This document shows, piece after piece, positions 22,924-42,015 of a DNA stretch of 64,000 bases. A program made the translations under genes and the position numbers. The stretch's first letter is position 1. Each line of letters begins with the position of its first letter. Location: NCBI RefSeq assembly GCF_013912065.1, contig NZ_JACESA010000006.1, positions 124,001 through 188,000 on the forward strand, given 5' to 3'. The notes under the pieces were generated by a model that was not told the DNA's origin, ran no database searches, and worked only from the letters and a program-made list of their open reading frames with translations. The DNA is from Brevundimonas sp. Its GTDB lineage: Bacteria > Pseudomonadota > Alphaproteobacteria > Caulobacterales > Caulobacteraceae.

Positions 22924-23516
22924 TCCACCAACACTCCGGCCCGCCGCAACTCCGCCAGCACCGGCCACAGCGGCAGTCCCAGGACGGTGAAATAGTCCCC
23001 GTCTACGGCCGAGAACAGCTGCGAGCCCATTCCTTCCAGCCGATAGGAACCGACGCAGGACAGCAGGGCCTCACCCTCTGCCGCCAGATAGGCGTCGAGG
23101 AAGGCGTCGGAGAAGTCGCGCATCCGCATCTCGACCGTATCGACGCCGGACCAGACGATCTCGCTCTTTACGGCCAGGGCCGCGCCCGAGTGGAGATAAT
23201 GGGTGCGTCCACGCATGGATTTCAGCCGTTCGCGAGCCGCCTCCAGACTGGTCACCTTGGACACCAGGCCGTCGTCGAAGGCCAGGGTCTGGTCCGAGCC
23301 CAGAACCCAGGCGGTCTCGACATCGCGAGACACGGCCAGGGCCTTGGCCTCGGCGAGACGGATCGCCAGGGCGGCGGGGTCCAGATCGGCGGAGACGGCC
23401 TTGATCGCGTCCTCGTCGACACCGGCGACCCGGACCTCGAACGGGACGCCGGCGTTTTCGAGCATGGCCCGGCGTGCGGCGCTCTTGGAGGCCAGGATCA
23501 GGGTTTCGCCGCTCAC
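22920..23516 (-). CDS. maf: Maf-family nucleoside triphosphate pyrophosphatase
   Basis: 198 residues. The N-terminal signature is ILASKSAARRAMLENAGVPF, and the conserved WVLGSDQTLAFDDGLVSK and YRLEGMGSQLFSAVDGDYFTVLGLPL segments are present. Maf proteins hydrolyse modified or canonical NTPs to prevent misincorporation, and some affect septation. It overlaps ppsR by 4 bases upstream and aroE by 4 bases downstream. Confidence 0.93.
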   Translation of the reverse strand: MSGETLILASKSAARRAMLENAGVPFEVRVAGVDEDAIKAVSADLDPAALAIRLAEAKALAVSRDVETAWVLGSDQTLAFDDGLVSKVTSLEAARERLKSMRGRTHYLHSGAALAVKSEIVWSGVDTVEMRMRDFSDAFLDAYLAAEGEALLSCVGSYRLEGMGSQLFSAVDGDYFTVLGLPLWPVLAELRRAGVLVE

Positions 23517-24391
23517 CAGGTGGTTCCGATCTTGTGGTTGCGGTGCTCGCTGAGCAGGTTGGTGATGGCGGCCGCCGTCTCCTCCACCGAGCGGCGGGTG
23601 ACGTCGATCGTGGGCCAGCCGCGGCGTTCAAAGGCTCTCTTGGCCTTGATGGTCTCGTCGCGAACGGCGTCCTGATCTGTGTAGCTGGAGGCCTGAACGG
23701 CGTTCAGATTGTCGAGCCGGTTGCGGCGGATCTGGACCAGTCTGTCGGGCGAGACGGTCAGGCCGATGACCAGGGGGTTCTTCAGGTGGGTCAGGCGCTC
23801 GCCGTCCTCCTGCCCCGGCACCAGTGGCACATTGGCGGCGCGGATGCCGCGGTGGGCCAGATAGATGCAGGTGGGGGTCTTGGAGGTCCGGCTGACGCCG
23901 CACAGCACCACGTCGGCGCCCTCGAGCTGCTCCAGACCGCCCTGGCCGTCGTCATAGGCCATGGCGAAGTCCAGAGCGGCGATGCGGTTGAAATACTCGT
24001 GGTCCAGCGCGTGCTGGGCGCCGACGCGGGTCGACAGGGCCGCGCCCAGATAGCGGGACATGGCGCCGACCAGCGGGTCCAGGGCGCCGATCTGGGGCAT
24101 GTCCAGCCGCCGACAACCCTCCTCGAGCTGTCCGCGCAGGTCGCGGTCGACCAGGGTATGCAGCACCACGCCCGGCGCGGCCTCCACCTCCTGCAGCACC
24201 CGGTCCATCTGTTTCGCCGAGCGGACAAGGGCGTAGATGTGTTCGATCGGAATGACCCCGTCGAACCGGGCCGTCACCGCCTTGGCCATGGCGTTCAATG
24301 TCTCGCCGGTCGAATCCGACACCAGATGCACATGGAAATAGGTGGCCAGGCGGGCGGGGCCGGACGGACGGGCGGGTCGCGCGGGGCTCAT
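23513..24391 (-). CDS. ppsR: Pyruvate, phosphate dikinase regulatory protein (DUF299)
   Basis: 292 residues from the ATG at 24391; a GTG at 24421 would add ten. This bifunctional kinase/pyrophosphorylase controls pyruvate phosphate dikinase or PEP synthase. It begins FHVHLVSDSTGETLNAMAKA and has the P-loop GVSRTSKTPTCIYLAHRG. In Caulobacter the orthologue (historically RP001) borders the replication origin opposite hemE. The same arrangement is found here and anchors the origin call. Confidence 0.93.
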   Translation of the reverse strand: MSPARPARPSGPARLATYFHVHLVSDSTGETLNAMAKAVTARFDGVIPIEHIYALVRSAKQMDRVLQEVEAAPGVVLHTLVDRDLRGQLEEGCRRLDMPQIGALDPLVGAMSRYLGAALSTRVGAQHALDHEYFNRIAALDFAMAYDDGQGGLEQLEGADVVLCGVSRTSKTPTCIYLAHRGIRAANVPLVPGQEDGERLTHLKNPLVIGLTVSPDRLVQIRRNRLDNLNAVQASSYTDQDAVRDETIKAKRAFERRGWPTIDVTRRSVEETAAAITNLLSEHRNHKIGTTW

Positions 24392-24567
24392 TCGGTAGGT
24401 CGACTCCCTGTTGAAGGACACGGCGCCGGCTGGGGACGGCGAGGGACCGTCGGGGCGCCTTTCTCCTTAGCCGCTGATCGCGCGGGCCGCGAGCGGGGAT
24501 GACGGTGGACGCTCCACCCCGCCCGACACGGCTTCATCCCAAGGCGGAAAACCGGTTTCATCCTCGC

Positions 24568-24576
24568 TGTGGAAAA
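24568..24576 (-). promoter_or_regulatory. DnaA-like box in origin
   Basis: TGTGGAAAA on the plus strand reads TTTTCCACA on the minus strand, one mismatch from the consensus TTATCCACA. It is 3 bases from the first CtrA-like box, so CtrA and DnaA binding could interfere. Confidence 0.5.
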
Positions 24577-24578
24577 TC

Positions 24579-24593
24579 CTAACGAAGGGTTAA
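24579..24593 (-). promoter_or_regulatory. CtrA-like box 1
   Basis: On the minus strand it reads TTAA-N7-TTAG, one mismatch from the CtrA consensus TTAA-N7-TTAA. Overlapping bases also form the inverted repeat GGGTTAA/TTAACCC. Confidence 0.55.
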
Positions 24594-24642
24594 TGTCGCT
24601 TAACCCCGTTCACAGGCGAAGAGGCCCGTGAAGCCTTGCCTG

Positions 24643-24657
24643 TTAAGGTTTCGTTAG
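24643..24657 (+). promoter_or_regulatory. CtrA-like box 2
   Basis: TTAAGGTTTCGTTAG, that is TTAA-N7-TTAG. It is nearly identical to box 1 in the opposite orientation (both share TTCGTTAGG), giving a mirrored pair 50 bases apart. Confidence 0.55.
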
Positions 24658-24852
24658 GGATTGTCCACCGACGGGACGAGGGTGTTCGACGGACTGGAGA
24701 GGCAGGGGCGGGGCGTGGATATCCGCTTTTGTTCCGGGGGCGAGGCCGACTTCGTCCCCGCCATTCCACCGCACTACCTGCCACTTCGAATCTTTTAATT
24801 CTTAATCTGATTAGGGATTGAGAGCGGGGGGCTGTGACCTTAATCGTCCGGC

Positions 24853-25911
24853 ATGACCGAACTCGCCCAAGCTTCCTCCCAGACGCCGATGATGATCAGG
24901 GCTCTCCGGGGAGAGGCGCTGGAACGTCCCCCCGTCTGGTTCATGCGCCAGGCGGGACGATACCTGCCCGAATATCGCCGTCTGAGGGCCGAGGCGCCGG
25001 ACTTCATCGCCTTCTGCCTGAACCCCGAGATGGCGGCCGAGGCCACCCTGCAGCCGATGCGGCGGTTCGGTTTCGACGCGGCCATCGTCTTCGCCGACAT
25101 CCTGCTGATCCCGCGCGCCCTGGGCCAGGATGTCTGGTTCGAGGCGGGCGAAGGGCCGCGGCTGGGCGAGATGCCGATCCCCGGTCGGATGGCGGAACTG
25201 GCCCCCGAGGCGGGCGAACATCTGTCGGCCGTTGGCGAGACCCTGAGCCTCGTGCGCAAGGCTCTGGAGCCGGAGCGGGCCCTGATCGGTTTCGCCGGCG
25301 CGCCCTGGACGGTGGCCACCTATATGCTGGACGGCGAGCACCGGACCATCGGCAAGGGCGAACGCGCCCAGGCTCGCACCTACGCATATGCCGATCCGAA
25401 ACGGGTGGACGAGACGCTCGAGGTCCTGGTCGAGGCCACGGCTCGGTATCTGAAGATGCAGGCCGACGCCGGCGCCCAGGTGTTGAAGATCTTCGAGAGC
25501 TGGGCCGAGGGCCTGCCGGACGACCTGTTCGAAAGACTGGTCCTGAAGCCTCACCAGGCGCTGGTGAAGCGTGTCCGGGAGCTGGGGGTCGATGTCCCCC
25601 TGATCGGCTTCCCACGGGGCTCTGCGGCGCTTGCTGAGCGCTATGCCGAGACGGTCGAGGTCGACGCCGTCGCCCTGGACACCGCCTGCCCCCTGGAGGT
25701 CGGAAAACGCGTGCAGCAGATCAAGCCGATCCAGGGCGCGCTGGATCCCCTGCTGCTGCGCGCCGGCGGCGATCTGCTGGACCGGCGGGTGGATCAGCTG
25801 ATGGAGGCCTGGGGGCAGGGACCTTGGGTCTTCAACCTGGGCCATGGCATACTGCCGGACGTGCCCATCGACCATGTCGAACGGGTGCTGAAACGGATCG
25901 GCGCCCAATGA
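24853..25911 (+). CDS. hemE: Uroporphyrinogen III decarboxylase
   Basis: 352 residues. HemE removes four carboxyl groups from uroporphyrinogen III to give coproporphyrinogen III. The signature FMRQAGRYLPEYRRLR near the N-terminus and GFAGAPWTVATYML mid-protein are conserved. It is the first gene right of the putative origin. In Caulobacter, transcription of hemE from the origin-side promoter is itself cell-cycle controlled. The stop overlaps hemH by 4 bases. Confidence 0.97.
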   Translation: MTELAQASSQTPMMIRALRGEALERPPVWFMRQAGRYLPEYRRLRAEAPDFIAFCLNPEMAAEATLQPMRRFGFDAAIVFADILLIPRALGQDVWFEAGEGPRLGEMPIPGRMAELAPEAGEHLSAVGETLSLVRKALEPERALIGFAGAPWTVATYMLDGEHRTIGKGERAQARTYAYADPKRVDETLEVLVEATARYLKMQADAGAQVLKIFESWAEGLPDDLFERLVLKPHQALVKRVRELGVDVPLIGFPRGSAALAERYAETVEVDAVALDTACPLEVGKRVQQIKPIQGALDPLLLRAGGDLLDRRVDQLMEAWGQGPWVFNLGHGILPDVPIDHVERVLKRIGAQ

Positions 25912-30426: not shown

Positions 30427-30442
30427 CGTTTCACGTGAAACA
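30427..30442. promoter_or_regulatory. parS: parS-like ParB-binding site 1
   Basis: CGTTTCACGTGAAACA matches the consensus TGTTTCACGTGAAACA at 15 of 16 positions. It lies between rho and the small DUF6489 gene, about 5.8 kb from the putative origin. Confidence 0.9.
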
Positions 30443-32258: not shown

Positions 32259-34154
32259 ATGAAAGCCTCAACCGAAATCTGCTTCGACGTCGTCGTCATC
32301 GGCGGCGGCCATGCCGGCTGTGACGCGGCGGCCGCATCGGCGCGCGCCGGCGCTCGCACCCTGCTGCTGACCCAGAAGCTGGAAACCATCGGGGAGATGT
32401 CTTGCAATCCGGCCATCGGCGGCTTGGGCAAGGGGCATCTGGTGCGTGAGATCGACGCCTTGGACGGGTTAATGGGGCGGTTGGCCGATGTGTCCGGCAT
32501 CCAGTTCCGCCTGCTGAACCGGTCGAAGGGCGCGGCCGTGCGCGGCCCGCGTAGTCAGATCGACCGCCGCCTTTATCGCGAAGCCATGCAGGCCGAACTG
32601 GCGCGGACGTCCAATCTGACCCTGATGGCGGGCACGGCTGAACACCTGATCATGGACGGCGATCAGGTCACGGGCGTGGTCACGGGGGCTGGCGATAGAC
32701 TGCGGGCAGGGGCCGTGGTGCTGACGACCGGCACCTTCCTGAACGGTGTGATCCACCGCGGCGACGAACGGATCCCGGCGGGTCGTCATGGCGAGGCGCC
32801 ATCGACGGGGCTGGCCGCCGATCTCCACAGTGCGGATTTGATGATGGGACGGTTGAAGACCGGCACCCCTGCGCGTCTGGACGGACGCACCATCGCCTGG
32901 GACCAATTGGAGATGCAGCAGGCGGACGAGACGCCGTCGGCCTTCTCCTTCCTGACCGACCAGATCTCCGTGCCGCAGATCGCTTGCGGCGTGACCCATA
33001 CGACCGAGGAAACCCATCGTATCATCGCCGAAAATCTGGGCGAGAGCGCCGTCTATGGCGGCAAGTTGTCGGGCCGGGGACCGCGCTATTGTCCGTCGAT
33101 CGAGGACAAGGTGGTCCGGTTCGCCGACAAGACCAGCCACCAGATCTTCCTCGAGCCGGAGGGTCTGGACGATCCGACCGTCTATCCGAACGGGATTTCG
33201 ACCTCGGTGTCCGAGGCGACCCAGCTGGCCTTTCTGCGGACCATCCCCGGTCTGGAGGCGGTGGAGGTGTTTCGGTACGGCTATGCGATCGAATACGACT
33301 ATGTCGATCCGCGCGAGCTGACCCCTGCTCTGGAAGTGAAGAAGCGGCCAGGCCTCTATCTGGCGGGCCAGATCAATGGGACGACCGGCTACGAGGAGGC
33401 GGCCGCCCAGGGCCTTATGGCTGGGTGGAACGCGGCGCGGGCGGCGGCGGGGCAGGCTCCGATGATTCTGGGGCGTGATCAGGCCTATATCGGCGTCATG
33501 ATCGACGACCTGGTGACACGGGGCGTGACCGAACCCTATCGCATGTTCACCAGCCGGGCCGAGTATCGACTGACCCTGCGTGCCGATAACGCCGACCAGA
33601 GACTGACGCCGCTGGGCGTTGAGTGTGGGATCGTCGGCGACGAACGTCGCGTGCGGTTCCAGGCCAAGGCCGAGAAACTGTCCGTGGCCAGCACTGTTTC
33701 ACGTGAAACCCTGTTCACCCCCAAGGAAGCCAACAGCCTCGGGATTCCCGTCAACGCCGACGGTCGGCGTCGGTCGATGCGCGAACTGCTGGCCTTCCCC
33801 GACGTGACGCTGGACCATTTCGTCCCCGTCTGTCCCACCATCTCTGGATGGGGCGCCGAGATCCGTGAACAGATCGAGATCGACGCCGGCTACGCCAACT
33901 ACCTGGATCGGCAGGCGATAGACGCCGAGGCTCTGCGTACCGAAGAGGCGATGCTACTGCCTGCCGACCTGGATTATGCCGCCATCGGCAGCCTGTCCAA
34001 CGAGGTCAAGGAGAAGCTGGCCCGGATTCAGCCCAGAACCCTGGGCCAGGCGGGTCGTATCGAAGGCATGACGCCCGGCGCCCTGACGGCCCTCCTGGCC
34101 CATGTGAAGAAGGCGCCGGCCAGGGCGTCCGCCAAGGGCGAGGTCGCCGCCTGA
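32259..34154 (+). CDS. mnmG: tRNA uridine-5-carboxymethylaminomethyl synthesis FAD enzyme MnmG
   Basis: 631 residues from the ATG at 32259; a start at 32241 would add six. FAD-binding [17 protein letters not shown] is near the N-terminus. The conserved segments [36 protein letters not shown] and [17 protein letters not shown] cover the catalytic Cys region. The gene contains a parS site in its 3' third. It overlaps rsmG by one base (TGATG). Confidence 0.97.
33695..33710. promoter_or_regulatory. parS: parS-like site 3, inside mnmG
   Basis: TGTTTCACGTGAAACC matches the consensus at 15 of 16 positions, in the mnmG coding region, where it encodes part of STVSRETL. It is about 9.0 kb from the origin. 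Confidence 0.9.
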
Positions 34155-34786
34155 TGTCGGACGCGGAACGAGCCGTCTTCCAGGCCAAGACAGGCGCCAC
34201 GGTGGCGCAGATGGCGGACCTGGAGACTTTTCGTCTCCGTCTGACCGAGGCTAACGAGGTGATGAACCTTGTCGGTCCCGACAGCCTGCCGGATTTCTGG
34301 AACCGGCACGCCTGGGACAGCGCCCAGCTACTGGCCCTCGCGCCGGATGCTCTGACCTGGGCCGACCTGGGCGCGGGCGCGGGATTTCCGGGCGTGGTGC
34401 TGGCGATTCTGTTGAAGGGCAGAGTTGGAGGCCATATCTGGTTGATCGACAGTCTGGGAAAACGGTGTCGTTTCCTGCAAGAGGTGGTGGACGCCTTCGA
34501 TCTTCCGGCGACGGTCGTGAACGGCAGGGCCGAAGCTCAAACGATCCGATGCGACATCGTCACTGCTCGCGCGGTCGCGCCGATGGAGAAGTTGCTGGGT
34601 TATGCACAGCCCTACTTTGAAAGGGGTGCACAAGGTCTGTTTCTGAAGGGGGAGAAGGCCGAATCCGAGTTGATCGAGGCGCGGAAATCCTGGCATTTTG
34701 AGGCTGAACTGGCCCCGTCGCAAAGCGACCCGCGCGGCCGCATCGTGACAGTCCGGAGTGTTCGACGTGCCCGCCCCCAGCACTAG
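34154..34786 (+). CDS. rsmG: 16S rRNA (guanine527-N7)-methyltransferase RsmG
   Basis: 210 residues. The AdoMet-binding motif WADLGAGAGFPGVVLAILL and the IDSLGKRCRFLQEVVDAF segment are typical of RsmG (GidB). The enzyme methylates G527 of 16S rRNA; loss gives low-level streptomycin resistance in several species. The last residues (to 34786) overlap the parA start. Confidence 0.95.
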   Translation: MSDAERAVFQAKTGATVAQMADLETFRLRLTEANEVMNLVGPDSLPDFWNRHAWDSAQLLALAPDALTWADLGAGAGFPGVVLAILLKGRVGGHIWLIDSLGKRCRFLQEVVDAFDLPATVVNGRAEAQTIRCDIVTARAVAPMEKLLGYAQPYFERGAQGLFLKGEKAESELIEARKSWHFEAELAPSQSDPRGRIVTVRSVRRARPQH

Positions 34787-35588
34787 CAAACTGCCTGCCC
34801 GCGTTCTCGCCGTGTCCAACCAGAAGGGCGGTGTGGGCAAGACCACGACGGCGATCAATCTGGGAACGGCTTTGGCCGCTATCGGCAAGCGCGTCCTGAT
34901 CGTGGATATGGACCCCCAGGGCAATGCCTCGACGGGTCTGGGTGTTCCACGTGAAACACGCCGGGTCACCATCTATGATGTGGTTGTCGATCAGCGCTCG
35001 ATCGACGACGCCGCGGTGCAAACGACTGTTCCCGGCCTGTGGATCGTGCCGGCCGACGCCGATATGTCGGGCGTCGAGATCGAATTGAGCCAGGCGGATC
35101 GCCGCTCCTATCGTCTGCGCGACGCCTTGAGGACGCATGACGAAGGCCCTACCGCGTATGACTATGTGCTGATCGACTGTCCACCGTCGCTGAACCTGCT
35201 GACGCTGAACGCCATGGCCGCCGCAGATGCGGTTCTGGTGCCCCTGCAATGCGAATTCTTCGCGTTGGAGGGCCTGAGCCAGCTGATGCGAACCATCGAC
35301 ATGGTCAAGCAAAGCCTTAATCCCGCACTGGAAATTCAGGGCCTGGTCCTGACCATGTTTGATCGGCGCAGCGCCCTGTCGGGCCAGGTCGCCAATGACG
35401 TCCGCGCCCATTTTGGCGACAAGGTCTATGACAGCGTCATTCCCCGCAATGTCCGCGTCGCCGAGGCGCCTTCGTTCGGAAAGCCGGCGCTGATCTATGA
35501 TCTCAAATGCGCCGGCAGCCAGGCCTATCTCCGCCTGGCGAAGGAAGTGGTGAAGCGGGAACGTCAACGGCTGAAGCTGGCGGCTTGA
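34767..35588 (+). CDS. parA: Chromosome partitioning ATPase ParA
   Basis: ParA is the DNA-bound ATPase that pulls ParB–parS complexes toward the new pole. The deviant Walker A is KGGVGKTT at residues 20-27, followed by VDMDPQGNASTGLG and CPPSLNLLTLNAMAAAD. No ATG lies near the start. The GTG at 34767 has GGAG eight bases upstream and gives 273 residues; a GTG at 34758 is the alternative. The start overlaps rsmG by 20 bases, so coupling is likely. Confidence 0.95.
   Translation: MPAPSTSKLPARVLAVSNQKGGVGKTTTAINLGTALAAIGKRVLIVDMDPQGNASTGLGVPRETRRVTIYDVVVDQRSIDDAAVQTTVPGLWIVPADADMSGVEIELSQADRRSYRLRDALRTHDEGPTAYDYVLIDCPPSLNLLTLNAMAAADAVLVPLQCEFFALEGLSQLMRTIDMVKQSLNPALEIQGLVLTMFDRRSALSGQVANDVRAHFGDKVYDSVIPRNVRVAEAPSFGKPALIYDLKCAGSQAYLRLAKEVVKRERQRLKLAA
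34943..34958. promoter_or_regulatory. parS: parS-like site 4, inside parA
   Basis: TGTTCCACGTGAAACA matches the consensus at 15 of 16 positions (C for T at position 5), inside parA. ParB binding here could also affect parAB transcription. It is about 10.3 kb from the origin. Confidence 0.85.
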
Positions 35589-35639: not shown

Positions 35640-36521
35640 TTGGCTGAACGACAAAGAGGCCTGGGCCGCGGCCTGTCGGCCCTGATGGGCGAAAATGTGG
35701 AGGCGCCGACCGCAGCGGGGGCGACCCTGCCGTCGGGCGTGCAGACGGCGCCGATCGAAAGCCTGAAGCCCAATCCGGATCAACCGCGCAAGATCTTCAC
35801 CCAGGAACATCTGGAAGAACTGACGGCGTCGATCCGCGACAAGGGGGTGCTTCAGCCCATTCTGGTGCGGTCGCAACCCGGCGAGGATGGGGTCTGGCAG
35901 ATCATCGCCGGTGAACGTCGCTGGCGCGCCGCCCAGGCCGCGCGTCTGACCGATGTGCCGATCGTCGTGCGTGAGATGGACGATGTCGAGGTATTCGAAG
36001 TCGCCATCATCGAGAATGTCCAGCGGGCGGATCTGAACCCTCTGGAAGAGGCCGACGCCTATCGCGTGCTGATGGAGCGGTTCGGGCGCACCCAGGACCA
36101 GGTCGCCGGCATTGTCGGCAAGAGCCGCAGCCATGTGGCCAATACCCTGCGCCTGCTGCAGTTGCCGGAGGAGGTGCTCTGGTACGTCCGTAACGGCAAG
36201 CTGACGGCTGGCCACGCCCGCGCCCTCGTGACCGCGCCCAACGCCCCGGCCTTGGCGGAACAGGCTTTTAACGAGGGACTGAACGTCCGCCAGGTCGAGG
36301 CCTTGGTTCGTCGCGCCGCCGAAGGTCCCAAGCCGGTCAAGGTCAAGCCGGCGACTGTAGGAGAGGGAGAGGCCGACGTCGCCGCTCTTCAGCAGGATCT
36401 CGCCGACGCTCTGGGCCTGAGCGTCCAGCTGAACGACAGGAACGGCAAGGGCGATCTGACCATCCGCTATGGGTCGCTGGAACAATTGGACGAGTTGTGC
36501 CGCCGCCTGATGCGGGGCTGA
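35640..36521 (+). CDS. parB: Chromosome partitioning protein ParB
   Basis: 293 residues from a TTG start at 35640, after a purine-rich GGAAGAAGAAACGG stretch. ParB is a CTP-dependent clamp that loads at parS and spreads. The N-terminal LGRGLSALMGE motif (the probable ParA-contact region), the CTP-binding GERRWRAAQ at 91-99 and ENVQRADLNPLEEA at 125-138 are present. The helix-turn-helix at about 150-172 (TQDQVAGIVGKSRSHVANTL) and a C-terminal dimerisation domain complete it. It starts 51 bases after parA. Confidence 0.96.
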   Translation: MAERQRGLGRGLSALMGENVEAPTAAGATLPSGVQTAPIESLKPNPDQPRKIFTQEHLEELTASIRDKGVLQPILVRSQPGEDGVWQIIAGERRWRAAQAARLTDVPIVVREMDDVEVFEVAIIENVQRADLNPLEEADAYRVLMERFGRTQDQVAGIVGKSRSHVANTLRLLQLPEEVLWYVRNGKLTAGHARALVTAPNAPALAEQAFNEGLNVRQVEALVRRAAEGPKPVKVKPATVGEGEADVAALQQDLADALGLSVQLNDRNGKGDLTIRYGSLEQLDELCRRLMRG

Positions 36522-41705: not shown

Positions 41706-42015
41706 AAATCAGGACAAATCCACCGTCAACCAATCACAATGTATCTAGGCTGATACAATGTATATCTTAGTTGCAATACACTATATCAAATTAGACATAT
41801 TCAGCATTGACGCCGGCTGCCGACAGGGTTATTCTAAACAAACGCTCATGCATCATAAAACGCAGTGAGTGCGCTCATTATACATTCACATGTCATATTA
41901 AGGTCACGCTTCTGCCTTCGATCCCAAGTCGAGACGAAGAGATGTGTGCGGGTTCGGCTGGGAGACGTAAGATCGAGCAGAGCGCGTCGTCACTCTGCGC
42001 CGCGGGACGTGCGCC
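41706..42015. promoter_or_regulatory. AT-rich regulatory region of the TonB receptor
   Basis: 310 bases without a gene, clearly more AT-rich than the surroundings. It contains the palindrome TGTATC-TAGGCT-GATACA (41740-41757) and a direct repeat ACAATGTAT at 41736-41744 and 41755-41763 (period 19). Both suggest an operator or promoter for the receptor, read on the minus strand. Nothing coding was recognised. Confidence 0.5.

Follow-up and report, generated by a model that had tools for sequence, protein, structure and literature searches.

A predicted Cori-like chromosomal replication origin between ppsR and hemE of a Brevundimonas species, and a GGCGCC palindrome array in congeners lacking CtrA boxes

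Does chromosome replication start in the gap between the divergent genes ppsR and hemE, and which sites would control it? The DNA analyzed here (the window, 64,000 nucleotides) comprises bases 124001 to 188000 of contig C42 in an assembly of 3,537,598 bases and 45 contigs; among named relatives, Brevundimonas species have the nearest hemE. A preliminary description of the sequence had recognized in the two flanking genes the pair that bounds the Caulobacter origin and had both of them transcribed away from the gap. Profile matches for the two genes and their divergent orientation bear this out (Table 1). The left limit of the gap depends on the start chosen for ppsR, for which the list of open reading frames offers a longer version beginning with GTG at 24421. 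As a CAT (ATG on the minus strand) at 24389 to 24391 is common to 16 of the 17 closest aligned gaps, counting rows that end short of it, the start was placed at 24391, which defines the limits of the gap used here. On the minus strand to the left, ppsR is accompanied by maf, aroE, coaE, and a gene for a dnaQ-type exonuclease, and on the plus strand to the right hemE is accompanied by hemH and, further on, by rho, mnmE, mnmG, rsmG, parA, and parB; gene names are from profile matches for those tested and the gene order from the list of open reading frames. The dnaA gene is located on a different contig (G000:C2:112411-112893), so that at least 56 kb of C42 on the right or 148 kb on the left separate it from the gap. 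A 38-base stretch elsewhere in the assembly (G000:C3:65845-65882, locus L002) is 85% identical to window positions 24493 to 24532, which form part of the gap.

Table 1. Features of the ppsR-hemE gap and of its surroundings (window coordinates)
Feature	Position	Strand	Basis and remarks
ppsR, left boundary gene (DUF299/COG1806 family; PEP synthase regulator)	23513..24391	-	NCBIfam PRK05339, 317 bits (cut-off 225); Pfam PF03618; start by alignment
ppsR-hemE gap, predicted chromosomal replication origin	24392..24852 (461 bp)		gene pair, skew of relatives, parS
GGCGCC	24422..24427		alignment; not at a recurrent position
GGCGCC	24454..24459		genus gaps; exactly 189 bases before right CtrA box, one of three genus-recurrent positions
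DnaA-like box TTTTCCACA	24568..24576	-	one mismatch; beside left CtrA box
Left CtrA box CTAACGAAGGGTTAA	24579..24593		one mismatch to TTAA-N7-TTAA; conserved in relatives
TTAA-N6-TTAA	24590..24603		sequence; noncanonical spacing; other congeners have CGGCGCC abutting a CtrA half-site here
Right CtrA box TTAAGGTTTCGTTAG	24643..24657		one mismatch to TTAA-N7-TTAA; conserved in relatives
DnaA-like box TTGTCCACC	24661..24669	+	genus consensus TTnTCCcCg; beside right CtrA box
DnaA-like box ATATCCACG	24714..24722	-	within block GTGGATATCCGCTTTTGTTCCG; kept in close relatives of the window
TTCGTCCCCGCC (TCCCCG)	24751..24762	+	genus alignment; best-conserved 12-base stretch region of 330 aligned bases
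AT-rich stretch, candidate unwinding site	24782..24824		70% AT in 40 bases; also in hemE promoter region
GANTC (GAATC), CcrM-type site	24788..24792		single GANTC in gap
hemE, right boundary gene	24853..25911	+	TIGR01464, 364 bits (cut-off 303); PF01208
parS-like site	30427..30442		one mismatch
parS-like site	33695..33710		one mismatch
parA-like partition ATPase gene	34758..35588	+	PF13614, PF01656; ParA name from family and neighboring parB
parS-like site	34943..34958		no mismatch
parB	35640..36521	+	TIGR00180, PF02195, PF17762, PF23552

The arrangement of the two genes is highly conserved. In all 110 loci fetched, which represent 98 distinct relatives once the own genome and duplicates are removed and include 11 from other families of the order, ppsR and hemE diverge around a single gap. 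Among 20 further Caulobacteraceae loci (11 genera; three loci of the same genus), ppsR was found in 16; of the remaining four, one is truncated at the edge of its contig and three yielded no match to ppsR.

With the assembly divided into 45 contigs, a whole-chromosome skew cannot be read from it. The skew of contig C42, sampled on both sides of the gap, shows much noise and fails to mark out the gap, and in the stretch 39 to 57 kb to its right the polarity of GGGNAGGG, the KOPS motif of E. coli, is opposite; this skew was set aside as neither supporting nor excluding the gap. Strand asymmetry was sampled in three single-contig congeners (G009, G011, and G155) in 20 stretches of 20 kb each, corresponding to 12 to 13% of each genome, by fitting one origin and an opposite terminus and taking the permutation P value at the gap; the samples from G009 and G011 were more closely spaced near the gap, and stretches of 20 kb cannot resolve a few kilobases. 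For the polarity of GGGNAGGG, the best origin was found at 900 kb in G009 (gap at 894 kb) and at 195 kb in G011 (gap at 212 kb), with a P value at the gap of 0.0005 in both cases, and at 2,625 to 2,640 kb in G155 (gap at 2,564 kb, outperformed by 12.4% of positions; P = 0.0015). For GC skew (G-C), the best origin was found at 2,560 kb in G155 (1.5% of positions better than the gap; P = 0.0005), at 1,000 kb in G009 (6.8% better; P = 0.002), and at 480 to 510 kb in G011 (13.1% better; P = 0.07). Four of the six fits are thus close to the gap, and two are poorer, namely, the GC skew of G011, 270 to 300 kb away, and the GGGNAGGG polarity of G155, 60 to 75 kb away. An origin signal clearly elsewhere on the chromosome, which the preliminary description had named as the observation that would speak against its proposal, was not seen in the sampled skew of these three complete congeners.

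The whole 3.54-Mb genome was searched with TGTTNCACGTGNAACA, the parS consensus, allowing at most one mismatch. Its only three parS-like sites are all located 5.6 to 10.1 kb from the gap, and the reversed pattern used as a control gave none. All parS-like sites listed for G009, G011, and G140 likewise lie within approximately 11 kb of hemE, as do five of the six in G155. The proposal that the window covers the start of chromosome replication is hence supported by the gene pair, the skew of the congeners, and the proximity of parS.

Within the gap, the preliminary description had listed CtrA-like boxes, a DnaA-like box, an AT-rich stretch, and a GANTC site, all of which were recovered. CtrA-like boxes, defined as TTAA-N7-TTAA with at most one mismatch, are represented by two one-mismatch boxes that are kept in relatives; no perfect box is present in the gap. 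These are two of only three matches in 64 kb, against 0.55 expected for the whole window, and the 97 one-mismatch positions of the own genome correspond to approximately 0.013 per 461 bp, compared to two in the gap. The genome contains two perfect and 97 one-mismatch sites, and the reversed control pattern gave 3 and 97; CtrA boxes were therefore rejected as a genome-wide signal, and the case for the two boxes rests on their clustering and conservation. DnaA-like boxes with one mismatch occur four times in the window, once of these in the gap, which at 2.9 expected is the chance level, so that their count alone was rejected as evidence for an origin; at up to two mismatches, the gap contains three such weak boxes against 0.52 expected. 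AT-rich clusters of the strength seen before hemE are found twice in the window, the second one at 41732 to 41811. A further GANTC, at 24402, is part of the ppsR leader or of the ppsR gene, depending on the start chosen. Across window positions 1 to 64000, GANTC occurs 86 times, compared to 326 expected from dinucleotide shuffles; such scarcity is also a feature of CcrM genomes. Neither TGATCCACA, used as the G-box string, nor WATCAANNNNTTR, used as the IHF consensus, matched anywhere in the gap at up to one mismatch. A T-to-G rule for the G-boxes of DnaA is given in PMC4468827. Several of the gap motifs are singly near chance; it is their retention in relatives that lifts them above it.

This retention was analyzed by aligning the last 330 bases of 88 genus gaps, a set that excludes 11 loci from other families and 12 duplicates, recognized by identical last 300 bases. 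Besides TTCGTCCCCGCC, the best-conserved parts include the module TTAAGG..T.GTTA.G..TT.TCCcCG at 24643 to 24669 and a block ahead of the AT-rich stretch. A CtrA box followed within at most five bases by a DnaA-like box of the type TKNTCCMC is present in 56 of the 74 gaps outside the CtrA-less clade described below, compared to 1.8% of random positions. The same arrangement on the other strand ahead of a CtrA box occurs in 25 of the 74 gaps, and 20, the window included, possess both and thus an inverted pair, formed in the window by TTAACCCTTCGTTAGGATTTTCCACAG on the minus strand and TTAAGGTTTCGTTAGGGATTGTCCACC on the plus strand. This CtrA-box/DnaA-box module of the genus gaps is new here. In loci presumed to be from Caulobacter (group g30, an inferred assignment), three to five boxes with at most one mismatch were found in all five sampled, and in two of the three that were printed (L160 and L163) TGATCCAC adjoins a perfect CtrA box. 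Both ctrA and a strong CcrM-type methylase gene are present in each of the five genomes searched.

The computed support for an origin in the gap consists of its position, the gene pair, the strand asymmetry centered on the origin in relatives, the proximity of parS, and the conserved CtrA/DnaA modules, and it makes us confident that the gap is the single chromosomal replication origin of a Brevundimonas species and works like Cori of Caulobacter. By analogy with C. crescentus, DnaA would assemble on the weak DnaA-like sites and open the AT-rich stretch next to hemE. In the nonreplicating cell, phosphorylated CtrA would bind the two CtrA boxes and shut DnaA off the boxes located 2 to 3 bases away, and the nearby ParB/parS sites would then serve to segregate the new origin. 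A putative GGCGCC-recognizing factor probably binds as well, at one recurrent site in the window. For C. crescentus Cori, PMC4468827 describes five sites for CtrA and two G-boxes located next to such sites, with CtrA probably excluding DnaA sterically; given that the boxes adjoin here too, we infer the same competition for the gap.

Two other explanations of the locus have to be weighed. The gap might contain no more than the divergent promoters of ppsR and hemE; its CtrA, DnaA, and CcrM sites would then have a transcriptional role, and the origin would be located elsewhere. The divergence of the two genes would suit this, the AT-rich block with its GANTC, 29 to 71 bases before hemE, looks promoter-like, and the GGCGCC at -189 is positioned just ahead of a TAGC block that is a possible ppsR promoter element. 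Promoter function could also account for some of the sequence conservation adjacent to hemE. Promoters alone, however, would leave aside the sign change of the skew at or near the gap in three complete congeners, the parS cluster beside it, and the fact that the experimentally known Caulobacter origin is bounded by the same gene pair (PMC1914354), and we consider this explanation very unlikely. Alternatively, the origin could be located in the neighborhood and not in the gap, e.g., next to parS/parAB or leftward, a placement that the resolution of the skew samples would allow; the three closest of the best fits miss the gap by 4 to 17 kb, and the remaining three by more. Against it stand the conserved CtrA-box/DnaA-box module and the single most AT-rich noncoding cluster near parS, both located in the gap, and the gene pair, which is as in Caulobacter; we regard such a placement as extremely improbable.

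With the gap taken as the origin, the distribution of its CtrA boxes within the genus raises a further question. CtrA boxes are present in 73 of the 88 gaps (at least two in 58, one in 15) and missing in 15; of shuffled gaps, 5.9% have any. In a tree of the ppsR and hemE proteins, calculated with a quick method, 14 of the 15 CtrA-less gaps form one group (SH-aLRT, 98), which carries the labels B. diminuta, B. naejangsanensis, B. guildfordensis, B. bullata, B. terrae, and B. pishanensis and includes several unnamed or MAG records (L050, L054, L059, L061 to L065, L072, L094, L104, L105, L108, and L111). The fifteenth, L099, is a MAG placed elsewhere in the tree. At the usual places, none of the 14 clade gaps has a CtrA box even with two mismatches. 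The complete genome G155, not itself in the tree, also has no CtrA box in its gap (L178) and possesses the same seven GGCGCC sites as the clade (see below); its retained CtrA protein shares 89% identity with the query, its GC-skew origin is at the gap, and parS is located beside the gap. In congener G140 (L179), which has no one-mismatch box, a two-mismatch remnant, CTAATGAAAGCCTAA, abuts GGCGCC. Its gap is possibly an intermediate of CtrA-box loss, and the remnant suggests that boxes may have decayed on more than one occasion. The region upstream of ctrA, which has a single one-mismatch CtrA box in G155 and none in the other four genomes, was unusable as proof that the specificity of CtrA is unchanged in the CtrA-less clade. 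Locus L050, titled as a MAG of Bordetella sp., has a B. diminuta-like hemE, ppsR, and gap, and the record title is therefore probably wrong.

The gaps of this clade are rich in one palindrome. GGCGCC reaches 16.4 per kb in the 14 CtrA-less clade gaps. Its density is 4.5 per kb in the remaining 74 gaps of the genus, 3.3 per kb in other genera, and 1.8 per kb in the flanking genes, whereas the seven other GC-only palindromes range from 0 to 0.42 per kb in the same 14 gaps. Seven positions, counted from hemE in L063 (-420, -399, -348, -330, -309, -259, and -235), are occupied in 14, 14, 14, 13, 14, 14, and 14 of the 14 gaps, respectively. In the seven most distant clade gaps, which are 58 to 67% identical to that of L063 (B. 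diminuta), all seven GGCGCC are kept in 7/7, compared to 1.29 on average for other hexamers, a few of which, e.g., GATTGA near hemE and CCCACA, reach 7/7 as well. The spacing chain 21-51-18-21-50-24 (within 2 bases), determined free of alignment, is complete in 12 of the 14 gaps and reaches six members in the remaining two; the longest such chain in the 74 other gaps has five members and occurs in one only, the sister row L060, and control palindromes gave 0 or 1. Where CtrA boxes are present, GGCGCC is found, counted from the right CtrA box, at -209 in 27, at -189 (±2) in 29, and at -47 in 20 of 73 gaps, with at least one of the three positions filled in 48 of the 73, counts that are not independent because related species share such sites by descent. 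In 15 of 74 gaps, the palindrome directly adjoins the left CtrA box, giving YYAACGGCGCC. Pairs of GGCGCC 21 bases apart do not occur in the gap of the window, the single such pair in the window being located inside ppsR.

These palindromes may constitute a third class of origin control site, set at fixed positions beside the CtrA boxes and read by a putative origin-binding protein. Such sites would have taken over in the B. diminuta clade, in which both CtrA boxes are gone, the array would have expanded to seven invariant sites, and ctrA is kept, replication thereby being uncoupled from direct CtrA repression; the window would represent the ancestral mixed state with one site left. We see this proposal as evenly poised between right and wrong. 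The array of the clade could also consist of methylation or restriction sites, form a ppsR operator, or be a by-product of local sequence bias, with no protein-binding function in origin control. GGCGCC is common in these genomes, with 2.5 per kb in G155, and of 19 other sampled G155 stretches 10 have a 500-base window with six or seven copies, the origin being the densest with eight and not far ahead. Against these alternatives, the other GC-only palindromes are not enriched in the clade gaps, and the spacing is fixed over 185 bases in gaps of the low identity given above. C5-methylase genes, found in 5/5 genomes, fit a methylation role; they differ in number and match layout with no shared one evident, and this role was set aside for that reason. 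We hold these alternatives to be somewhat doubtful as an explanation of the array, and serious nonetheless.

Repression of the origin by CtrA is the textbook case of an asymmetric cell cycle blocking replication in one daughter. Relatives that keep ctrA and the place of the origin without recognizable CtrA boxes amount to a natural experiment on whether this block has been lost or is now exerted by another protein, and the seven-site GGCGCC array offers a bait for finding such a protein. For the window, the replication start of the genome is fixed, and with it the strand and gene-dosage context. In the literature searched, with subscription papers outside its coverage, we found neither the missing CtrA boxes of the B. 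diminuta clade nor GGCGCC sites in these origins described.

The GATC/SeqA sites of E. coli oriC are short palindromes at fixed places in the origin, with the core and not the flanks conserved. The GGCGCC array resembles them in its short palindromes, conserved core, and fixed places in the origin and differs in having a six-base GC palindrome and no shared methylase evident among five genomes. Across the genus, conserved TCCCCG boxes in the stretch corresponding to window positions 24751 to 24820 precede a pyrimidine-rich strand and AT-rich DNA. DnaA-like TCCCC boxes and these two elements, in the right order, are also features of the DnaA-trio/BUS element (PMC8287927), the rule for which, as given there, asks for at least three DnaA-trios within 16 bases of a DnaA box. 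By eye, no clean succession of three trinucleotides carrying the required middle base was seen inside the 16-base spacer in either the sequence or the genus consensus; on this reading, the stretch is a possible unwinding element that does not fit the published rule. A boundary formed by hemE and/or COG1806 is shared with the in silico origins of Rickettsia, Wolbachia, Ehrlichia, and Anaplasma, for which PMC1914354 reports varying numbers of CtrA, DnaA, and IHF sites, those of CtrA ranging from zero to several. As the use of CtrA sites in origins is also described as evolutionarily flexible in PMC4468827, variation as such is already known. In contrast to those obligate intracellular lineages, the loss of CtrA boxes seen here concerns one free-living clade with a replacement motif at fixed positions.

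The closest counterpart is C. crescentus Cori, with which the gap shares the boundary genes (hemE and CC0001/COG1806) and their orientation, a similar size, the immediate adjacency of CtrA and DnaA boxes, an AT-rich stretch before hemE, and parS/parAB close by on the hemE side. In contrast, the gap has two one-mismatch CtrA boxes, compared to five high-affinity sites in Cori (PMC4468827 and PMC1914354), and lacks the CtrA box that L160 and L163, the presumed Caulobacter loci, have close to hemE; TTTTCCACA and TTGTCCACC take the place of the TGATCCACA G-boxes, there is no IHF match, and dnaA is on another contig. Having weaker CtrA boxes and neither a G-box nor an IHF match, the origin predicted in the window is best described as a variant within the Cori kind.
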